Shown here: one piece after another, positions 3,466-20,144 of the stretch | Position numbering within the stretch: position 1 is the stretch's first letter | How the letters are laid out: each line of letters opens with the position of its first letter | NCBI GenBank assembly: GCA_025927415.1 | Contig: JAICLK010000003.1 | Span: forward strand, 1-43,739 | Length of the DNA: 43,739 bases | From: Candidatus Saccharimonadota bacterium | GTDB lineage: Bacteria; Patescibacteriota; Saccharimonadia; Saccharimonadales; UBA4665 | Direction of reading: 5' to 3' | Translations under genes and position numbers: made by a program | Notes under the pieces: model-generated | Told to the model about the DNA's origin: nothing | Databases searched by the model: none | What the model saw: only the letters and a program-made list of their open reading frames with translations

Positions 3466-3591
3466 ACATTTAGTATAGCATTGCCAACAGAAACTTGCAC
3501 AAATCAACTTTTGTGACACTATACTTTTCGCCTTCCACGAATGTGCGTTCGTGCTGACGAGCTCGAACAGATGAAAAAGCAAGAACAAGAA

Positions 3592-3620: not shown

Positions 3621-3822
3621 TTTGCTAATCTTTGTGAGTTTGACTCCGAGGATGGAACATTGGCAAGCACACAGATACAAAGTGAGGTATATTGGTAAAC
3701 CATGTTTTTGGTTTGTTGCTACGCCTCACTTTGTGCGAGTTCATAAGGGACCGGACAACATCCTCATCATGTGGATGGAGCAGATACTGCTCGGTGTGGC
3801 GAATGAAAGGTGGCTTTTAGCC

Positions 3823-4449
3823 ATGCGATTCAACTTCAACTCCGCTCTGACGGCGCTGCCCGATGGCAAGTTCGAGGAGAAGGCGCACAACCAACTCGTG
3901 CAGCCTATCCGGCGGCACATCATGGACATCGACGGCGTCACCGGATGCAACATCCAGCGGTACTTCGTCGAAGTGCAGTTCACCAACGACGTGGTTTCGC
4001 GGGCCGAGGTAACCCAGGGGGTGCGGTTCATCTTCCAGGTGATGGCTGAGGCCCAAGAGTACAACTTCTTCCCGAACCTGGGCAACAAGACCCTCAAGGT
4101 CACGCCGGTGCAGGAGAGCCGCTCGACCAGCTATTGGGTCTACGCGGACCTGGGTACGGCACTCGTCGACTTCTTCCCGGACCACGCCAACGAAGGCTGG
4201 GACAAGCAGAAGTTCCGCGAGGTCACGGCGCCCATCGTCAACGAGATGGTCAAGCACGACGGCGTGCTCGACTACGTGATCCGACCCTTCCAGGTTGGTC
4301 TGCGAGTTGACGTCCGGGTCACCACCATCCAGGCGACGAAGGACCACCTTCGTGAGGTGCTAACCCAGGTACGCCAGCTTCTCAGTACGTATCCGTTCCT
4401 CGAGGACGACGCGGAGCTGAAGCTCAAGCTCTGGCACCGCGCCTACTAA
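3823..4449 (+). CDS. Hypothetical protein with two similar alpha/beta halves (module A cargo)
   Basis: AAAGGTGG SD about 9 nt upstream of ATG 3823; no recognised family. Internal similarity DIDGVTGCNIQRYFVEVQF..AEVTQGVRFIFQVMAEAQEYNFFP versus KHDGVLDYVIRPFQVGLRV..ATKDHLREVLTQVRQLLSTYPFLE. The ORF track begins upstream at 3622, inside the structured leader. Confidence 0.75.
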   Translation: MRFNFNSALTALPDGKFEEKAHNQLVQPIRRHIMDIDGVTGCNIQRYFVEVQFTNDVVSRAEVTQGVRFIFQVMAEAQEYNFFPNLGNKTLKVTPVQESRSTSYWVYADLGTALVDFFPDHANEGWDKQKFREVTAPIVNEMVKHDGVLDYVIRPFQVGLRVDVRVTTIQATKDHLREVLTQVRQLLSTYPFLEDDAELKLKLWHRAY

Positions 4450-4599
4450 TATTCGACACCCTCGCCGGGCGTGGCATGCTTTTACAGTGCCACGCCTCGG
4501 CGTGTCGTTTCCCCTTCCTCGCCTTTTCCTGTTCGCTGCCAATGTTCCTATTTTTTATTAACGAATGCAACAAAATTTCCTGCTCTGTCTGCCCGTGTC

Positions 4600-4649
4600 C
4601 GCTCCGTGAGTGCGTGTTCACGCTGATGAGTCCAAAAGGACGGAAAGCG
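4600..4649 (+). ncRNA. Hammerhead-ribozyme-like motif (type III topology)
   Basis: CGCT|C, stem I CGTGA(4605-4609)/TCACG(4618-4622), CTGATGA 4623-4629, stem II GTCC-AAAA-GGAC, GAAA 4643-4646, AGCG closing stem III. One extra G between stem II and GAAA. Confidence 0.6.
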
Positions 4650-4669
4650 AGCTTTATCTATAAACTGGG

Positions 4670-5069: not shown

Positions 5070-5920
5070 GCTTCTTGAGCGTCTTTGCCGATAGCGGCCC
5101 ATCCATCCACGTCGCGCCCGGCGTCGACTTTGTGTACCACGGTTTCAACGTCACCAACTCCATGGTTTGGGGCTGGTTTATTATTCTCATTATGGCCGTT
5201 GGCCTTGGCACGCTTGCTCGCCGCGTTTCGGTTCATCCGAAAGGCGGCATTGTTCAATATGTCGAGGCGGTTGTCTCGTTTGTTGTCGACTTGGTCGAGA
5301 ACGCCTTTACCGACAAAAAGATTGGCCGTAAGTACGTGCCGTTTTTCGTAACGCTCTTTTTCTTCGTGCTGCTCAACAACTGGTCGGGGCTGATTCCTGG
5401 CGTGGGCGATGGCATTCAGGTGCACGGCCACCCGCTGCTCCGGCCAATTACCGGCGACCTGAACATGACACTGGCCATGGGTTTGGTGACGATGATCGTT
5501 GTCTACGCGGCTTCTATTAAAGAGATTGGTGGCTTCGGCAAATACATTCGCCACTTCTTTATCGGCAGCCCGCTCAACCCGCTGTATTTGATTATTGGGT
5601 TGATTGAGATGATTACCGACCTCACGCGTGCGCTGTCCTTGGCGCTTCGACTTTTCCTGAACGTGACCATCGGCGAGATCGTGATTGCCGTGTTTGCGTA
5701 CCTCGGCGGCCTGCTCGCTCCGTCCAGTATTTTGTCGCCAATTACGGCGCTGCCGTTCACCCTGCTGGAACTGGGTGTGGGCGCGCTGCAGGCATATATT
5801 TTCGTTATCCTTGGCGTCAACTATCTGGCTATTAGCGTGAACAGCGCACACGACCACGATGAGTTGACGGAAGTTGAATCTGTTGCAGCTCCCAAGAAAG
5901 TTGTCGCGGCCAAAGGATAA
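5066..5920 (+). CDS. atpB: F0F1 ATP synthase subunit a
   Basis: ADLTRALSLALRLFLNVTIGEI-like (TDLTRALSLALRLFLNVTIGEI) subunit a signature, NWSGLIPGVG, hydrophobic helices. Confidence 0.95.
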   Translation: MSFLSVFADSGPSIHVAPGVDFVYHGFNVTNSMVWGWFIILIMAVGLGTLARRVSVHPKGGIVQYVEAVVSFVVDLVENAFTDKKIGRKYVPFFVTLFFFVLLNNWSGLIPGVGDGIQVHGHPLLRPITGDLNMTLAMGLVTMIVVYAASIKEIGGFGKYIRHFFIGSPLNPLYLIIGLIEMITDLTRALSLALRLFLNVTIGEIVIAVFAYLGGLLAPSSILSPITALPFTLLELGVGALQAYIFVILGVNYLAISVNSAHDHDELTEVESVAAPKKVVAAKG

Positions 5921-16448: not shown

Positions 16449-16477
16449 TTGACATAAGCAGAATGAGATGGTAATAT
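16449..16477 (+). promoter_or_regulatory. Predicted strong sigma70 promoter of module B (TTGACA-17-TAATAT)
   Basis: Consensus -35 TTGACA, 17 nt spacer, TAATAT. Confidence 0.8.
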
Positions 16478-16662
16478 ATACTCATCTTGTTAATCTTTTC
16501 AGGTTTTCGAGGTACTTTAGCAGGCAGATTTTGAAACAACTTGAGCTGAACAGCGAGGTTCTGAGAAACTCCAGAGCTTTGCTATTCATCTCGAACTTCA
16601 CTGTTCAGCTCAAAATGAGCGGACCACGCAGCTAGCGTGCAGCACGACAGAAAGGAAGCCAC

Positions 16663-17424
16663 GTGGCTACCTACGGCATGACCAGCATGAAAGGCGGCCT
16701 GCGTCGCCCGCACTTCCGGAAGGTTCAGAGCAAGGTGACCGCGGTGATTTTGGCCGTGCTTCTTGCCTCGGTCATCGGTGGCACTGCAGTAGCGGTGGCG
16801 ACGCCCGGCACGGACGAAGCAACCCATGCTCCGCCCGCCGTCGTATCCACGAGTCACATGCTTCACCAGCGAGTCCAGCGAGACGCCGTTTCGCCTTGGC
16901 ATCCGCATCGTGTCATGCATCACACCAGTAATGTCGCGCATCATGTCAGCAAGCCCACCAGCTTGCCGAAGTTGACCTGCGACAACACGACCCCGAGTAT
17001 GTGCAAGGGGTACCAATCCGCTGCGGGCTACGCTAATGGTGCGTACGCTTGGTCACAGTCGGACGCAAGTAAGCACCACTATTTCAAGTGGATCGACGTC
17101 ACGGGGGATAATTCGAAGGCGAACGTCCTCGACGTCGAGCCCGGTGACGCCACCAACGCGCAGGCGCACGACTGGGTTCAGAAGGCGCACCGTCTTCACC
17201 GCGGCGAACGCGTGTGGGTGTACACCTACAGCAGTAACGCCGAGGGCCTCAAGAAGGCCGTGTCTGGCACTCCCAACGTTGGCTTCTGGATTGCGGCTCC
17301 GTCGCAGTTCGCCGGAAACTGGAAATTCCAGGACGGCAGTCACGCCGATGCCACGCAGTACAACAACCCAAGCGCACAGACCGACATATCGGTTACCAGG
17401 CCTGCGTTCTATAGCCCCTCGTAG
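16663..17424 (+). CDS. Secreted hypothetical protein with GH25/DUF1906-like C-terminal domain (module B cargo)
   Basis: GTG start with AAAGGA SD; signal/TM segment VTAVILAVLLASVIGGTAVAV; FKWIDVTGDNSKANVLDVEPGD...WVYTYSSNAEGLK...GFWIAAP...DATQYNN resembles a GH25-like barrel. Confidence 0.65.
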   Translation: MATYGMTSMKGGLRRPHFRKVQSKVTAVILAVLLASVIGGTAVAVATPGTDEATHAPPAVVSTSHMLHQRVQRDAVSPWHPHRVMHHTSNVAHHVSKPTSLPKLTCDNTTPSMCKGYQSAAGYANGAYAWSQSDASKHHYFKWIDVTGDNSKANVLDVEPGDATNAQAHDWVQKAHRLHRGERVWVYTYSSNAEGLKKAVSGTPNVGFWIAAPSQFAGNWKFQDGSHADATQYNNPSAQTDISVTRPAFYSPS

Positions 17425-17466
17425 GCTACAAAACTTGTAGTCGACTATCCGAAAGGAGGTGCATAA

Positions 17467-17505
17467 ATGGTTTGCTGGGTGCACATGGGTGCGAAAGATT
17501 TGTGA
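17467..17505 (+). CDS. Candidate 12-aa micro-ORF (MVCWVHMGAKDL) with full-length SD
   Basis: AAAGGAGGTG at 17452-17461, ATG 17467, TGA 17503-17505. Confidence 0.3.
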   Translation: MVCWVHMGAKDL

Positions 17506-17564
17506 GCCTCTTGGCCTGCTTACCTTTCGCACCCTACGCCCACCCCTTCTGTTTCAAAATCTGC

Positions 17565-17629
17565 CATTCACTTTTCCACGAATGAACCAAGTCGTGCCGA
17601 CGAGCTGTAAACAGCGAAAAAAGTGAATG
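17565..17629 (+). ncRNA. Hammerhead-ribozyme-like motif (type III topology)
   Basis: Stem III CATTCACTTTT/AAAAGTGAATG (11 bp perfect); C17576; stem I CACGA/TCGTG; CCGACGA core (consensus CUGANGA, U4C); stem II GCTG-TAAA-CAGC; GAAA. Confidence 0.65.
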
Positions 17630-17638
17630 CGCCAGAAG

Positions 17639-17667
17639 TTGATAAAACATTGGTAAAATGATAAAAT
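17639..17667 (+). promoter_or_regulatory. Predicted sigma70 promoter of module C (TTGATA-17-TAAAAT)
   Basis: TTGATA 17639-17644, 17 nt spacer, TAAAAT 17662-17667, immediately after the hammerhead-like motif. Confidence 0.75.
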
Positions 17668-17830
17668 ATATGCGACTTTGTTGAGGCGGAAGCTTCCAAA
17701 GCACCTTAACAAGCAGATTTTGAAACATACGTATGAGATGACAGCGAGCTGACGAGCTTCGTCGGTTTACTGTCATCTCATACAGAGAGATCACGCAGCC
17801 AGCGTGTGGCTATACCAGGCAAGGAGTACC

Positions 17831-18205
17831 ATGAACGTGAAGTTCAAGAGGACCATCGCAATCGCGGCTGCAGGCGCAGCCATCGGCCTTGCGGCATCGG
17901 CATGCACGGTGTCGCCGTCGCTCCCACCGACTCCGCAGCAAAGCCTAGTGGCAGCACTGCGGAATCTACCTGGCGTTACCGCTAGGGTAGCGGGATCAGT
18001 AGTGTACGCCGAAGACGGCTACGAGCAATGGGTGTGCGTTCCCGGCGACAAGCCTGAGCAGTATTCTGCGACGCAACGGAGCATCGTGTTCTTCGTCCTT
18101 TATGGATATGCATGTGACAGCACCAATCCATCAGCGGACGTGCAGTACTTCGCCAACAGTGTGGGCGGCACGATTCGCACCTACACCTACACGGTGAAGC
18201 GGTAA
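17831..18205 (+). CDS. Putative lipoprotein (module C)
   Basis: AAGGAG SD; MNVKFKRTIAIAAAGAAIGLAASAC lipobox. Confidence 0.7.
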   Translation: MNVKFKRTIAIAAAGAAIGLAASACTVSPSLPPTPQQSLVAALRNLPGVTARVAGSVVYAEDGYEQWVCVPGDKPEQYSATQRSIVFFVLYGYACDSTNPSADVQYFANSVGGTIRTYTYTVKR

Positions 18206-18249
18206 AAGACACCCGATCCATCCCTACGACTCCAGCAAGGAGAGGTTCC

Positions 18250-19008
18250 ATGCACGTCATCGACAATCCCAACATGCTGTTGTACATCGAGCCGACCGGC
18301 CCTGTCAGCGGCGAACCCGTCGACGACGAGCTGACGCTCAAGATGCGCGTGGTGTTCGCCAAGGCGGTTCCGACTGGCGAGGTCTACGAGGAATTCCATC
18401 GCTGCACTTCCTGCGGTGAGAAGAGCACCAACACGGACTACATCCTGCCTGGCGGGATGCAGACCAACTCCCTGTGCGTGCACTACCTCGAGCGTCACCG
18501 CGATGAGGTGCCCAAGAGCGAGCTCGCCAAGGTGGAGGCGCTGGACGTCGAGACCGACGACCTGTACTACTGCGCCGACGAGCGCAACGAGACGAGGTGG
18601 TCCAACTACGAATTCCTCGGTCCCGAGGAGGACTATTTCGGGAACTGGGACCACGTGCAGGAGTACCCGCTGCCACCACTGCAACCTATTGGCAAAGAAG
18701 GCGAGTTCCCCCTATTCCCTCCGCCGTTGCACTTCTACGACGAGGAATACGAGTGGCCGAACCTCAACAAGTCGCTGCCCGAGCTCAACAGGACCGAGCT
18801 TCTTGGCGACGGTCTCATCGAGCGCTTGATCGCCAGGTTCGACGAGTCACGCAGGCGCAAGCCGAACAGGGACCCGCACCGGTGGCCGCTGCACAGGTTC
18901 GACGACCTCATCAGCCGCTCCATCGGCGACCTGCGCCCCAAGCACATCGAGCCCGAACGAACCACCGACCCCGACGAAACCTCGCCGGACGACCCAACAG
19001 AGCGCTAA
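18250..19008 (+). CDS. Hypothetical protein with CTSCGEK zinc-knuckle-like motif (module C)
   Basis: CAAGGAGAGG SD; CTSCGEKSTNTDYILPGGMQTNSLCVHYLERHR. Confidence 0.7.
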   Translation: MHVIDNPNMLLYIEPTGPVSGEPVDDELTLKMRVVFAKAVPTGEVYEEFHRCTSCGEKSTNTDYILPGGMQTNSLCVHYLERHRDEVPKSELAKVEALDVETDDLYYCADERNETRWSNYEFLGPEEDYFGNWDHVQEYPLPPLQPIGKEGEFPLFPPPLHFYDEEYEWPNLNKSLPELNRTELLGDGLIERLIARFDESRRRKPNRDPHRWPLHRFDDLISRSIGDLRPKHIEPERTTDPDETSPDDPTER

Positions 19009-19042
19009 CCAGCGCACAACTCGAAGGAGCAAGGAGGCGCTT

Positions 19043-19438
19043 ATGCGCAAGGTCGTCGAAGTCGTGGAGTTTCACGAGCCCCTTCCGGGTTCGGAACTCA
19101 TCGACTATATCATCCGGTCCGCCGAGCGAACGCCTTATGCTGAGCTCCAGCTCACAGAGGAGATCGTCGGCGACATCGTGGTGGTGAGCATCGGTCTCAA
19201 GTCGGCAACGTACCCGGAGTGGAACATTCGCGTCCAGCTCAACGATGACTGGCCGATCATCTTCCACGACCGGGATTACGGCCGAGCCGAGATCATGCAC
19301 TACTTCTGGGAGGAACAGGGCGTCGTCGACACCCACTTGTTCAACAGCGTACTTGCCTGGGCGGCCACCCAGCTGCTCGGGACGAGTATCAGGACCCAGT
19401 ACCTGCTGCGTCACGGCACCGCCGTCACCAGGAGGTGA
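19043..19438 (+). CDS. Hypothetical protein (module C)
   Basis: GAAGGAGCAAGGAGG SD, GC-rich codon use matching neighbours; no recognised family. Confidence 0.65.
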   Translation: MRKVVEVVEFHEPLPGSELIDYIIRSAERTPYAELQLTEEIVGDIVVVSIGLKSATYPEWNIRVQLNDDWPIIFHDRDYGRAEIMHYFWEEQGVVDTHLFNSVLAWAATQLLGTSIRTQYLLRHGTAVTRR

Positions 19439-19442
19439 GGCA

Positions 19443-19556
19443 TTGATCTCGCTGACGCAGGTCATCACTACCATAGCGGTGGACCTTGTGTTCATCGGCC
19501 TTGCTGTAGTGGCGATATGTCTCAGGCGGCGTCTCAGGCGCAATCGCTCGGAGTAG
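19443..19556 (+). CDS. Small single-TM protein (module C)
   Basis: TTG start 7 nt after GGAGG; MISLTQVITTIAVDLVFIGLAVVAICLRRRLRRNRSE. Confidence 0.45.
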   Translation: MISLTQVITTIAVDLVFIGLAVVAICLRRRLRRNRSE

Positions 19557-19590
19557 TGTCACTCCAACATCACCATTGAGGAGGTGAAAC

Positions 19591-19884
19591 ATGGAGGTGG
19601 TAAAGTGTACCATCGTCAACATCACCGAGGCAGCCGCTGAATGGCTGGCTACACTCATCGCTGATGATGGGCGCGAGGGACTCAGGCTTCGCCTGTCGCT
19701 GCAGGGTCGAGCGTTGATGGTCAACCTGGATAACCGTAACTGGCCGGGCGATATCGTCGACTCCTCCAATGGCATCGCGGTTGTGGTCAACTGCGCGCAC
19801 ATCGATCTTCTGGTCGGTACGACCATTGGGTTCGTCCAAAACGGTGACGAGGTGGGGCTGAGTTTCTACGCACCTAGGCTGTGA
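19591..19884 (+). CDS. HesB/IscA-fold-like protein lacking the cluster cysteines (module C)
   Basis: GAGGAGGTG SD; ITEAAAEWLATLIADDGREGLRLRLSLQG...GIAVVVNCAHIDLLVGTTIGFVQNGDEVGLSFYAP follows the A-type carrier pattern without CxnCGC. Confidence 0.55.
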   Translation: MEVVKCTIVNITEAAAEWLATLIADDGREGLRLRLSLQGRALMVNLDNRNWPGDIVDSSNGIAVVVNCAHIDLLVGTTIGFVQNGDEVGLSFYAPRL

Positions 19885-20144
19885 GTCGGCGCTAGGGCGC
19901 GGGAGACTTGGTGGCTACGGCTACCTCGAACTTCCGCGCCCCGCGCGCCCTCTCCCCAAAAAATGTTTCAAAATCTGCTGTTCTCTCTATAACTTATGAA
20001 TGTGTGGCGATAATTCGACCGAGCAGGGAGAATTATATGATGAGCCCGAGCGAGCCCTACTTATGAATAATAGCGAGCCTGGCGTGAAGCTACAAAAGGC
20101 GACCAACTCTTGCGTTCTAACAGCGAAACACTTAAGCTAATGGC

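Follow-up and report, generated by a model that had tools for sequence, protein, structure and literature searches.

A variant type III hammerhead at the end of a predicted transcription unit with complementary mRNA ends in a Saccharibacteria genome

Organization of the locus

The window analysed here is a stretch of 43,739 nucleotides (contig JAICLK010000003.1, assembly GCA_025927415.1) from a Candidatus Saccharimonadota bacterium whose genome amounts to 665 kb in 51 contigs and is about 76% complete. Units A, B and D were delineated in it (Table 1). Unit B begins right after the hammerhead of unit A, giving a tandem arrangement in which good promoters lie directly 5' of both leaders and no intrinsic terminator or terminator-like site was found between the two units. 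An R1 search of the window scored no hammerhead after the 3' arm of unit B, where the local fold was no better than that of shuffled sequences. Unit D, which spans 3628–4650, ends in a hammerhead that reaches 28.5 bits with the Rfam Hammerhead_3 model, below its gathering score of 48.5.

Table 1. Features of units A, B and D in the window. Scores refer to covariance models of the hammerhead (R1) and of the leader (R2).
Feature	Position	Strand	Remarks
Unit A promoter, sigma-70-type	16449–16477	+	TTGACA-17-TAATAT, extended -10; expected start ~16484
Unit A leader	16483–16528	+	Divergent copy of conserved 5' leader hairpin and linker; R2 16.4 bits, E 0.021 (window-wide search)
Unit A 5' arm	16523–16538	+	16 nt, fully complementary to 17550–17565
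Unit A hairpin	16541–16613	+	Just 3' of 5' arm; 21-nt arms, 90% complementary
Unit A cargo ORF	16663–17424	+	253 aa; membrane/signal-like segment at the N-terminus; matched by neither Pfam nor PHROG
Unit A 3' (trailer) arm	17550–17565	+	
Unit A hammerhead, type III	17565–17629	+	U4C core variant; predicted cut between 17576 and 17577
Unit B promoter	17639–17667	+	TTGATA-17-TAAAAT
Unit B leader	17674–17717	+	R2 55.8 bits
Unit B 5' arm	17712–17728	+	17 nt, fully complementary to 19963–19979
Unit B hairpin	17731–17783	+	After 5' arm
Unit B cargo	17831–19884	+	Four ORFs
Unit B ORF	17831–18205	+	Lipoprotein-like
Unit B ORFs	18250–19008, 19043–19438	+	
Unit B ORF	19591–19884	+	Weak Fe-S_biosyn match
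Unit B 3' arm	19963–19979	+	
Degenerate hammerhead upstream of unit D	3530–3580	+	Stem II broken; R1 40.3 bits
Unit D leader	3628–3671	+	Divergent; R2 11.6 bits, E 0.38, weak alone
Unit D cargo ORF	3769–4449	+	No family match
Unit D hammerhead	4599–4650	+	CUGAUGA core, one extra G before GAAA; R1 54.3 bits

Fold of the hammerhead at the end of unit A

The element at 17565–17629 folds into three helices around a core, with stem III open-ended and stems I and II closed, which is the type III topology. Stem III (17565–17575 with 17619–17629) comprises 11 bp, stem I is formed by CACGA (17577–17581) and UCGUG (17592–17596), and stem II by GCUG (17604–17607) and CAGC (17612–17615) with a UAAA loop. 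The core segment CCGACGA occupies 17597–17603 and the GAA segment 17616–17618. A15.1 (17619) pairs with U16.1 (17575), the G10.1–C11.1 pair corresponds to G17604–C17615, and H17 is C17576, the last base of the NUH triplet UUC at 17574–17576. The core bases C3, G5, A6, G8, A9, G12, A13 and A14 are all present, and position 4 is a cytosine (C17598) in place of uracil. All parts listed in the preliminary description (three perfect stems, core, U4C at 17598 and the cleavage context at C17576) were found in the sequence.

A strict descriptor (stems of 5, 4 and 5 bp, GAA and a NUH site) matched this element as the sole site in the real window and gave no match in 400 dinucleotide shuffles; a looser one (4, 3 and 4 bp) gave a single match in 400 shuffles. 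The R1 covariance model, built from relatives, scores the site at 59.7 bits (E 2e-15), the site itself being among its 25 training sequences. The models of Rfam release 15 gave no hammerhead match at 17565–17629, even at E≤10. The lack of a model hit had been named beforehand as a sign against a hammerhead and is what was obtained, yet Rfam also misses relatives with a canonical core, and so its silence does not refute the assignment. Sequence comparison confirms 17565–17629 as a genuine, slightly altered hammerhead; canonical homologues support this, on contigs C16 and C4 of this genome (without U4C) as well as in the family and the phylum.

Relatives and distribution

The copies on C16 and C4 have a stem I identical to that of the window copy and an almost identical loop (CACGAATGAACCAAGTCGTG, with one change in C4), carry the normal core CUGACGA, and likewise adjoin a trailer arm. 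A DNA search of 60 genomes yielded more copies. In an alignment of 25 distinct ones, the basis of R1, all three stems vary with compensatory changes; because the descriptor required the stems, this compensation is read as consistency and not as independent proof.

With R1, 94 hammerheads were detected in 22 of 60 genomes of the family, 11 of them in the window's genome and 29 in the relative G001, and R1 matched 32 of 120 genomes at the level of the order and 21 of 196 at that of the phylum. An exact 23-base pattern of one half of the core occurs in at least 119 stretches of GTDB genomes; where the matches listed carry a group name, it is almost always Patescibacteria, apart from one Caldiserica and one Polynucleobacter bin. 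Uncultivated phage contigs contain the pattern in 53 stretches. When 20 loci with such hammerheads were scored with Rfam, none came up to the gathering score, and two relatives matched RF00008 weakly (29.0 and 28.5 bits against a gathering score of 48.5).

The R1 search that found the 29 copies of G001 found none in G064 and G079 of the same genus, and the cassettes therefore seem to be quickly gained or lost. As a separate observation, the hammerhead at G000:C44:4995-5045 (L299) has a U15.1–A16.1 pair and a U10.1–U11.1 mismatch, two variants that are also described from nature by Perreault et al. 2011 (PMC3088659).

The U4C deviation

U4 is present in 220 of 224 related copies. The deviation of the window copy recurs in otherwise perfect copies (G068, G081 and L178) and in one of the same genome on contig C21. 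According to Perreault et al. (PMC3088659), cleavage is slow in some core variants and absent in others, and judged from its sequence the window copy may cut less rapidly than its canonical sisters, or be dead. The existence of these sister copies makes the family-level claim independent of the window copy.

The window copy might be a dying ribozyme, inactivated by U4C, in a unit that is turning into a relic. The near-universal retention of U4 speaks for such decay, as do the visibly degenerate hammerhead upstream of unit D and the lack of any hammerhead in unit B. Nevertheless, the three perfect stems and fully paired arms of the window copy speak against this, and random decay would not predict the same U4C in the otherwise perfect copies and on C21. 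We consider inactivation possible but somewhat unlikely; it would affect no copy other than that of the window and does not conflict with the explanation preferred for the family.

Layout of the cassettes and the 5' leader

Hammerheads of this family often end a unit of 0.5–1.2 kb made up of a promoter, a leader hairpin, a 5' arm, small ORFs, a 3' arm and the hammerhead, and the same layout is seen on contigs C7, C21 and C44. Hairpins similar to that of unit A follow the 5' arm in other units. The leader consists of a hairpin, CUUYG-UU-GAG...CUC-CRARG, followed by UACCUUGACAAGCAGA, and two of its pairs show compensatory change. The pattern YCRARGYACNTTRR occurs six times in the window's genome, always within these units; in unit A it matches at 16507–16520, in a divergent copy of the conserved leader that sits directly after the promoter. 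A leader pseudoknot between GUUGAGG and CCUUGAC was also considered; it pairs well and shows no covariation, so that only the hairpin is claimed.

R2 found 56 leaders, distributed over 19 of the 60 genomes of the family; hammerheads are present in 17 of these 19 as well (P = 9e-9). A same-strand hammerhead lies 0–3 kb downstream of 26 of the 56 leaders (median 776 nt); the corresponding numbers are 10 for an upstream position and 2 for the opposite strand. No hammerhead was found downstream of about half of the leaders, and for many hammerheads no leader was found. The model is specific, since in 196 genomes of the phylum its matches were confined to the window's genome and a second one from that order. 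G034 and G067 have leader matches and no hammerhead match; possibly the leader can act independently of the ribozyme as well.

A second conserved stretch, GATAATTCGACCGA..GGGAGAATTATATG..GGCGTGAAGCTA, is present at 20003–20092 of the window and at 5137–5226 (-) of L012, with 77% identity over 90 nt; it lies after the unit ends in C47 and C16, before a chromosomal gene.

Pairing of the leader and trailer arms

Exact copies of the arm TGTTTCAAAATCTGC are located at 16524–16538 (-), 17550–17564 (+), 17713–17727 (-) and 19964–19978 (+), and the trailer arm at 17550–17565 is therefore complementary both to its own leader arm (16523–16538) and to that of the next unit (17713–17727). The hammerhead had been described at first as abutting the trailer arm of a module B. 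A plus-strand trailer arm does adjoin it; the relevant partner, however, is the upstream leader arm of its own unit (16523–16538) and not the minus-strand copy at 17713–17727. Pairing with the latter is a possible between-unit alternative that could form within one RNA only before cleavage, by which the two would be cut apart.

In 25 units the duplexes of cognate leader and trailer arms have a mean energy of -28.9 kcal/mol, against -19.6 kcal/mol for mismatched partners, and none of 20,000 permutations was as good as the cognate assignment. The unit A arms are complementary at 16 of 16 nt (-31.2 kcal/mol), one of 48 non-cognate duplexes being slightly stronger. Compensatory change was observed at 9 of 14 pairs in 15 alignable units, which were partly chosen for pairing. 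Cells with a double change numbered 28, compared with 6.3 in shuffles (0 of 500) and at most 5 when the partner was slid. The arms of the C16 unit, ACAAAAGAAAGTGTGA with TCACACTTTCTTTTGT, are quite different in sequence and still complementary, and in G019 TTAATAAGTAGACT pairs with AGTCTACTTATTAA.

Folding of whole transcripts predicted the panhandle, that is, the pairing of the 5' and 3' arms, in 19 of 25 units, with a probability near 1 for unit A. At least 8 pairs also formed in 29 of 50 cases with trailers swapped between genomes, which share the arm core, and in 6 of 25 with shuffled trailers. Folding is only mildly specific, and the claim for the arms therefore rests on covariation and the permutation test. 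No panhandle was predicted for unit D by whole-transcript folding, and the units G001_C1, G001_C4b, G031 and G068_C18 favour pairing within their last 200 nt.

A duplex before the cut

A local hairpin of at least 6 bp directly before the cut is found in 57 of 68 phage hammerheads (84%; median gap 4 nt), in 40 of 113 GTDB loci among the matches listed and in none of 40 in the set from the window's family and order, the value for random positions being 10%. Median local folding energies rank in the same order as these frequencies. What the groups have in common, as far as predicted pairing tells, is that the new 3' end lies only a few nucleotides from a stable duplex, and the hammerhead is therefore read as a 3'-end-forming device. 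For the window's family we infer that the protecting duplex usually arises from pairing between the two ends of the mRNA.

Some family loci (e.g. in G001 and G031) have a hairpin of 20–25 bp whose partner strand lies about 90 nt upstream and which includes the stem III strand. At L024, L026, L040, L052 and others, the stem III strand forms part of the 3' strand of such a 20–25 bp hairpin. Because of this shared strand the hairpin and the ribozyme compete, and the competition could drive strand exchange after cleavage. Separately, a recurrent hairpin, GTGTCTTCAAAGACAC, precedes the hammerheads of the IMG/VR phages L197, L207, L213, L228 and L234, often several times per phage.

Proposed mechanism and alternatives

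The element at 17565–17629 is probably the 3'-end-forming hammerhead of a self-contained transcription unit (16449–17629), whose cleavage would leave mRNA ends tied together by a duplex. RNA polymerase would start at about 16484 and produce, in this order, the leader hairpin, the 5' arm, the second hairpin, one ORF, the 3' arm and the hammerhead. The latter would fold during synthesis and cut after C17576, leaving a 2',3'-cyclic phosphate 11 nt beyond the 3' arm. Pairing of this arm with the 5' arm of the same unit would place both ends in one duplex with almost no free tail, and cleavage would also part unit A from read-through into unit B. The presumed purpose is an mRNA protected from exonucleases and separated from its neighbours. 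The hammerhead fold, the homologues, the layout of the units and the complementary, covarying arms are features of the sequences themselves, from which we infer actual cleavage, formation of the panhandle in cells and the stabilising purpose. The coupling of 3' processing to the panhandle that the preliminary description had suggested gains support from the recurrence of units running from leader arm to trailer arm and hammerhead, and from the covariation of the arms.

An alternative is that the sole task of the hammerheads is to divide read-through transcripts into mRNAs of one unit each, the arms serving translation control or being incidental. Exactly this is suggested by Perreault 2011 (PMC3088659) for the hammerheads flanking prophage genes, and the tandem units in C6 of G001 and in the window would suit it. 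Many units are nevertheless single and lie between ordinary chromosomal genes (C4, C16), and both the covarying arms and the frequent duplex just before the cut are left unexplained, for which reasons we regard this as unlikely.

It is very unlikely that the units are mobile RNAs of the retrozyme or viroid kind, released at unit length, circularised and re-inserted. Their uneven occurrence, with 29 copies in G001 and none found in G064 and G079 of the same genus, and the possible presence of hammerheads on both sides of one unit (3530 and 4599) fit such a cycle; no R1 match, however, lies upstream of unit A, most units have a single hammerhead, their cargo varies from one to the next, and they have their own promoter and a leader that begins at the expected start site. 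That the arms are DNA elements, such as recombination or transposition ends, is extremely improbable: exact inverted arms of 15–17 nt do surround different cargoes, but they differ between units while remaining complementary within each, and they stand in a single orientation between promoter-leader and hammerhead.

Relation to known systems

The hammerheads resemble RF00008 type III in their open stem III, closed stems I and II and short loops, and the family shares the CUGANGA...GAAA core, the A15.1–U16.1 pair and the NUH cleavage triplet; they differ in scoring below the gathering threshold of 48.5 and, for the window copy, in U4C. Some bacterial mRNAs, e.g. ompA, are stabilised by a 5'-terminal stem-loop. 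The present units likewise have a hairpin at the very 5' end, whereas their 3' end, predicted to be ribozyme-made, would also be tied to the leader. As in retrozymes and hammerhead circular RNAs, a hammerhead ends a dispersed, RNA-producing unit, but here with its own promoter, protein-coding cargo, usually one hammerhead and paired 5' and 3' arms. Closest in arrangement are prophage hammerheads, several of which surround single genes or short blocks and for which mRNA processing was suggested (Perreault et al. 2011, PMC3088659); they belong to prophages of other bacteria, and the passages of that paper that were searched contain no 5' leader, no paired 5' and 3' arms and no Patescibacteria.

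A 2017 review (PMC6155905) treats what hammerheads do in prokaryotes as an open question. No open-access publication was found that joins hammerhead ribozymes with Saccharibacteria, Patescibacteria or CPR, and none describing units with a leader and panhandle, for which there is no name to search by. Thus, the hammerhead is known, and the cassette that combines it with a panhandle appears to be undescribed. The dozens of cassettes across Saccharibacteria genomes look like an unreported route to sealed, protected mRNA ends. Prokaryotic hammerheads are seen here in a consistent and testable arrangement, in which a duplex precedes the cut by a few nucleotides; in phages it is a local hairpin, and in Saccharibacteria it would be formed by the 5' and 3' ends of the mRNA. 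The resulting prediction is ribozyme-made, duplex-protected mRNA ends. Well over a hundred natural examples, mostly from Patescibacteria and phages and uncalled by Rfam models, are at hand.

Cargo of the cassettes

The cassette ORFs are small and led by a Shine-Dalgarno sequence, which the wider ORF survey required and the window ORFs show; 14 of 32 have a membrane-like segment and most belong to no known family, the exceptions being Fe-S_biosyn, Band_7 and the RNA polymerase alpha C-terminal domain. It is conceivable, albeit doubtful, that Saccharibacteria, which live on other bacteria, use a dedicated class of end-sealed mRNAs, with a 5' hairpin, a 5'-3' panhandle and a ribozyme-made 3' end, for dispersed, fast-changing small proteins that are often membrane-bound. 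If so, these messengers would persist unusually long and might have effects even beyond the producing cell.

GC3 of the cassette ORFs is 0.78, compared with 0.61, in the window's genome. An origin of the cargo from foreign high-GC DNA was considered and rejected; the cassettes of G007 have 33–34% GC, and high GC is therefore not general. A by-eye likeness of the 253-aa ORF to a GH25-type lysozyme was also discarded, no Pfam, PHROG or phage match being obtained. The cargo at L292 (G062) and L296 (G073) comprises a small RNA polymerase alpha C-terminal domain protein and a Band_7 protein, and an A-type iron-sulphur carrier-like protein (Fe-S_biosyn) is encoded in two cassettes of the same genome, at 5130–5480 of L011 and, with a weak match, in the last ORF of unit B.
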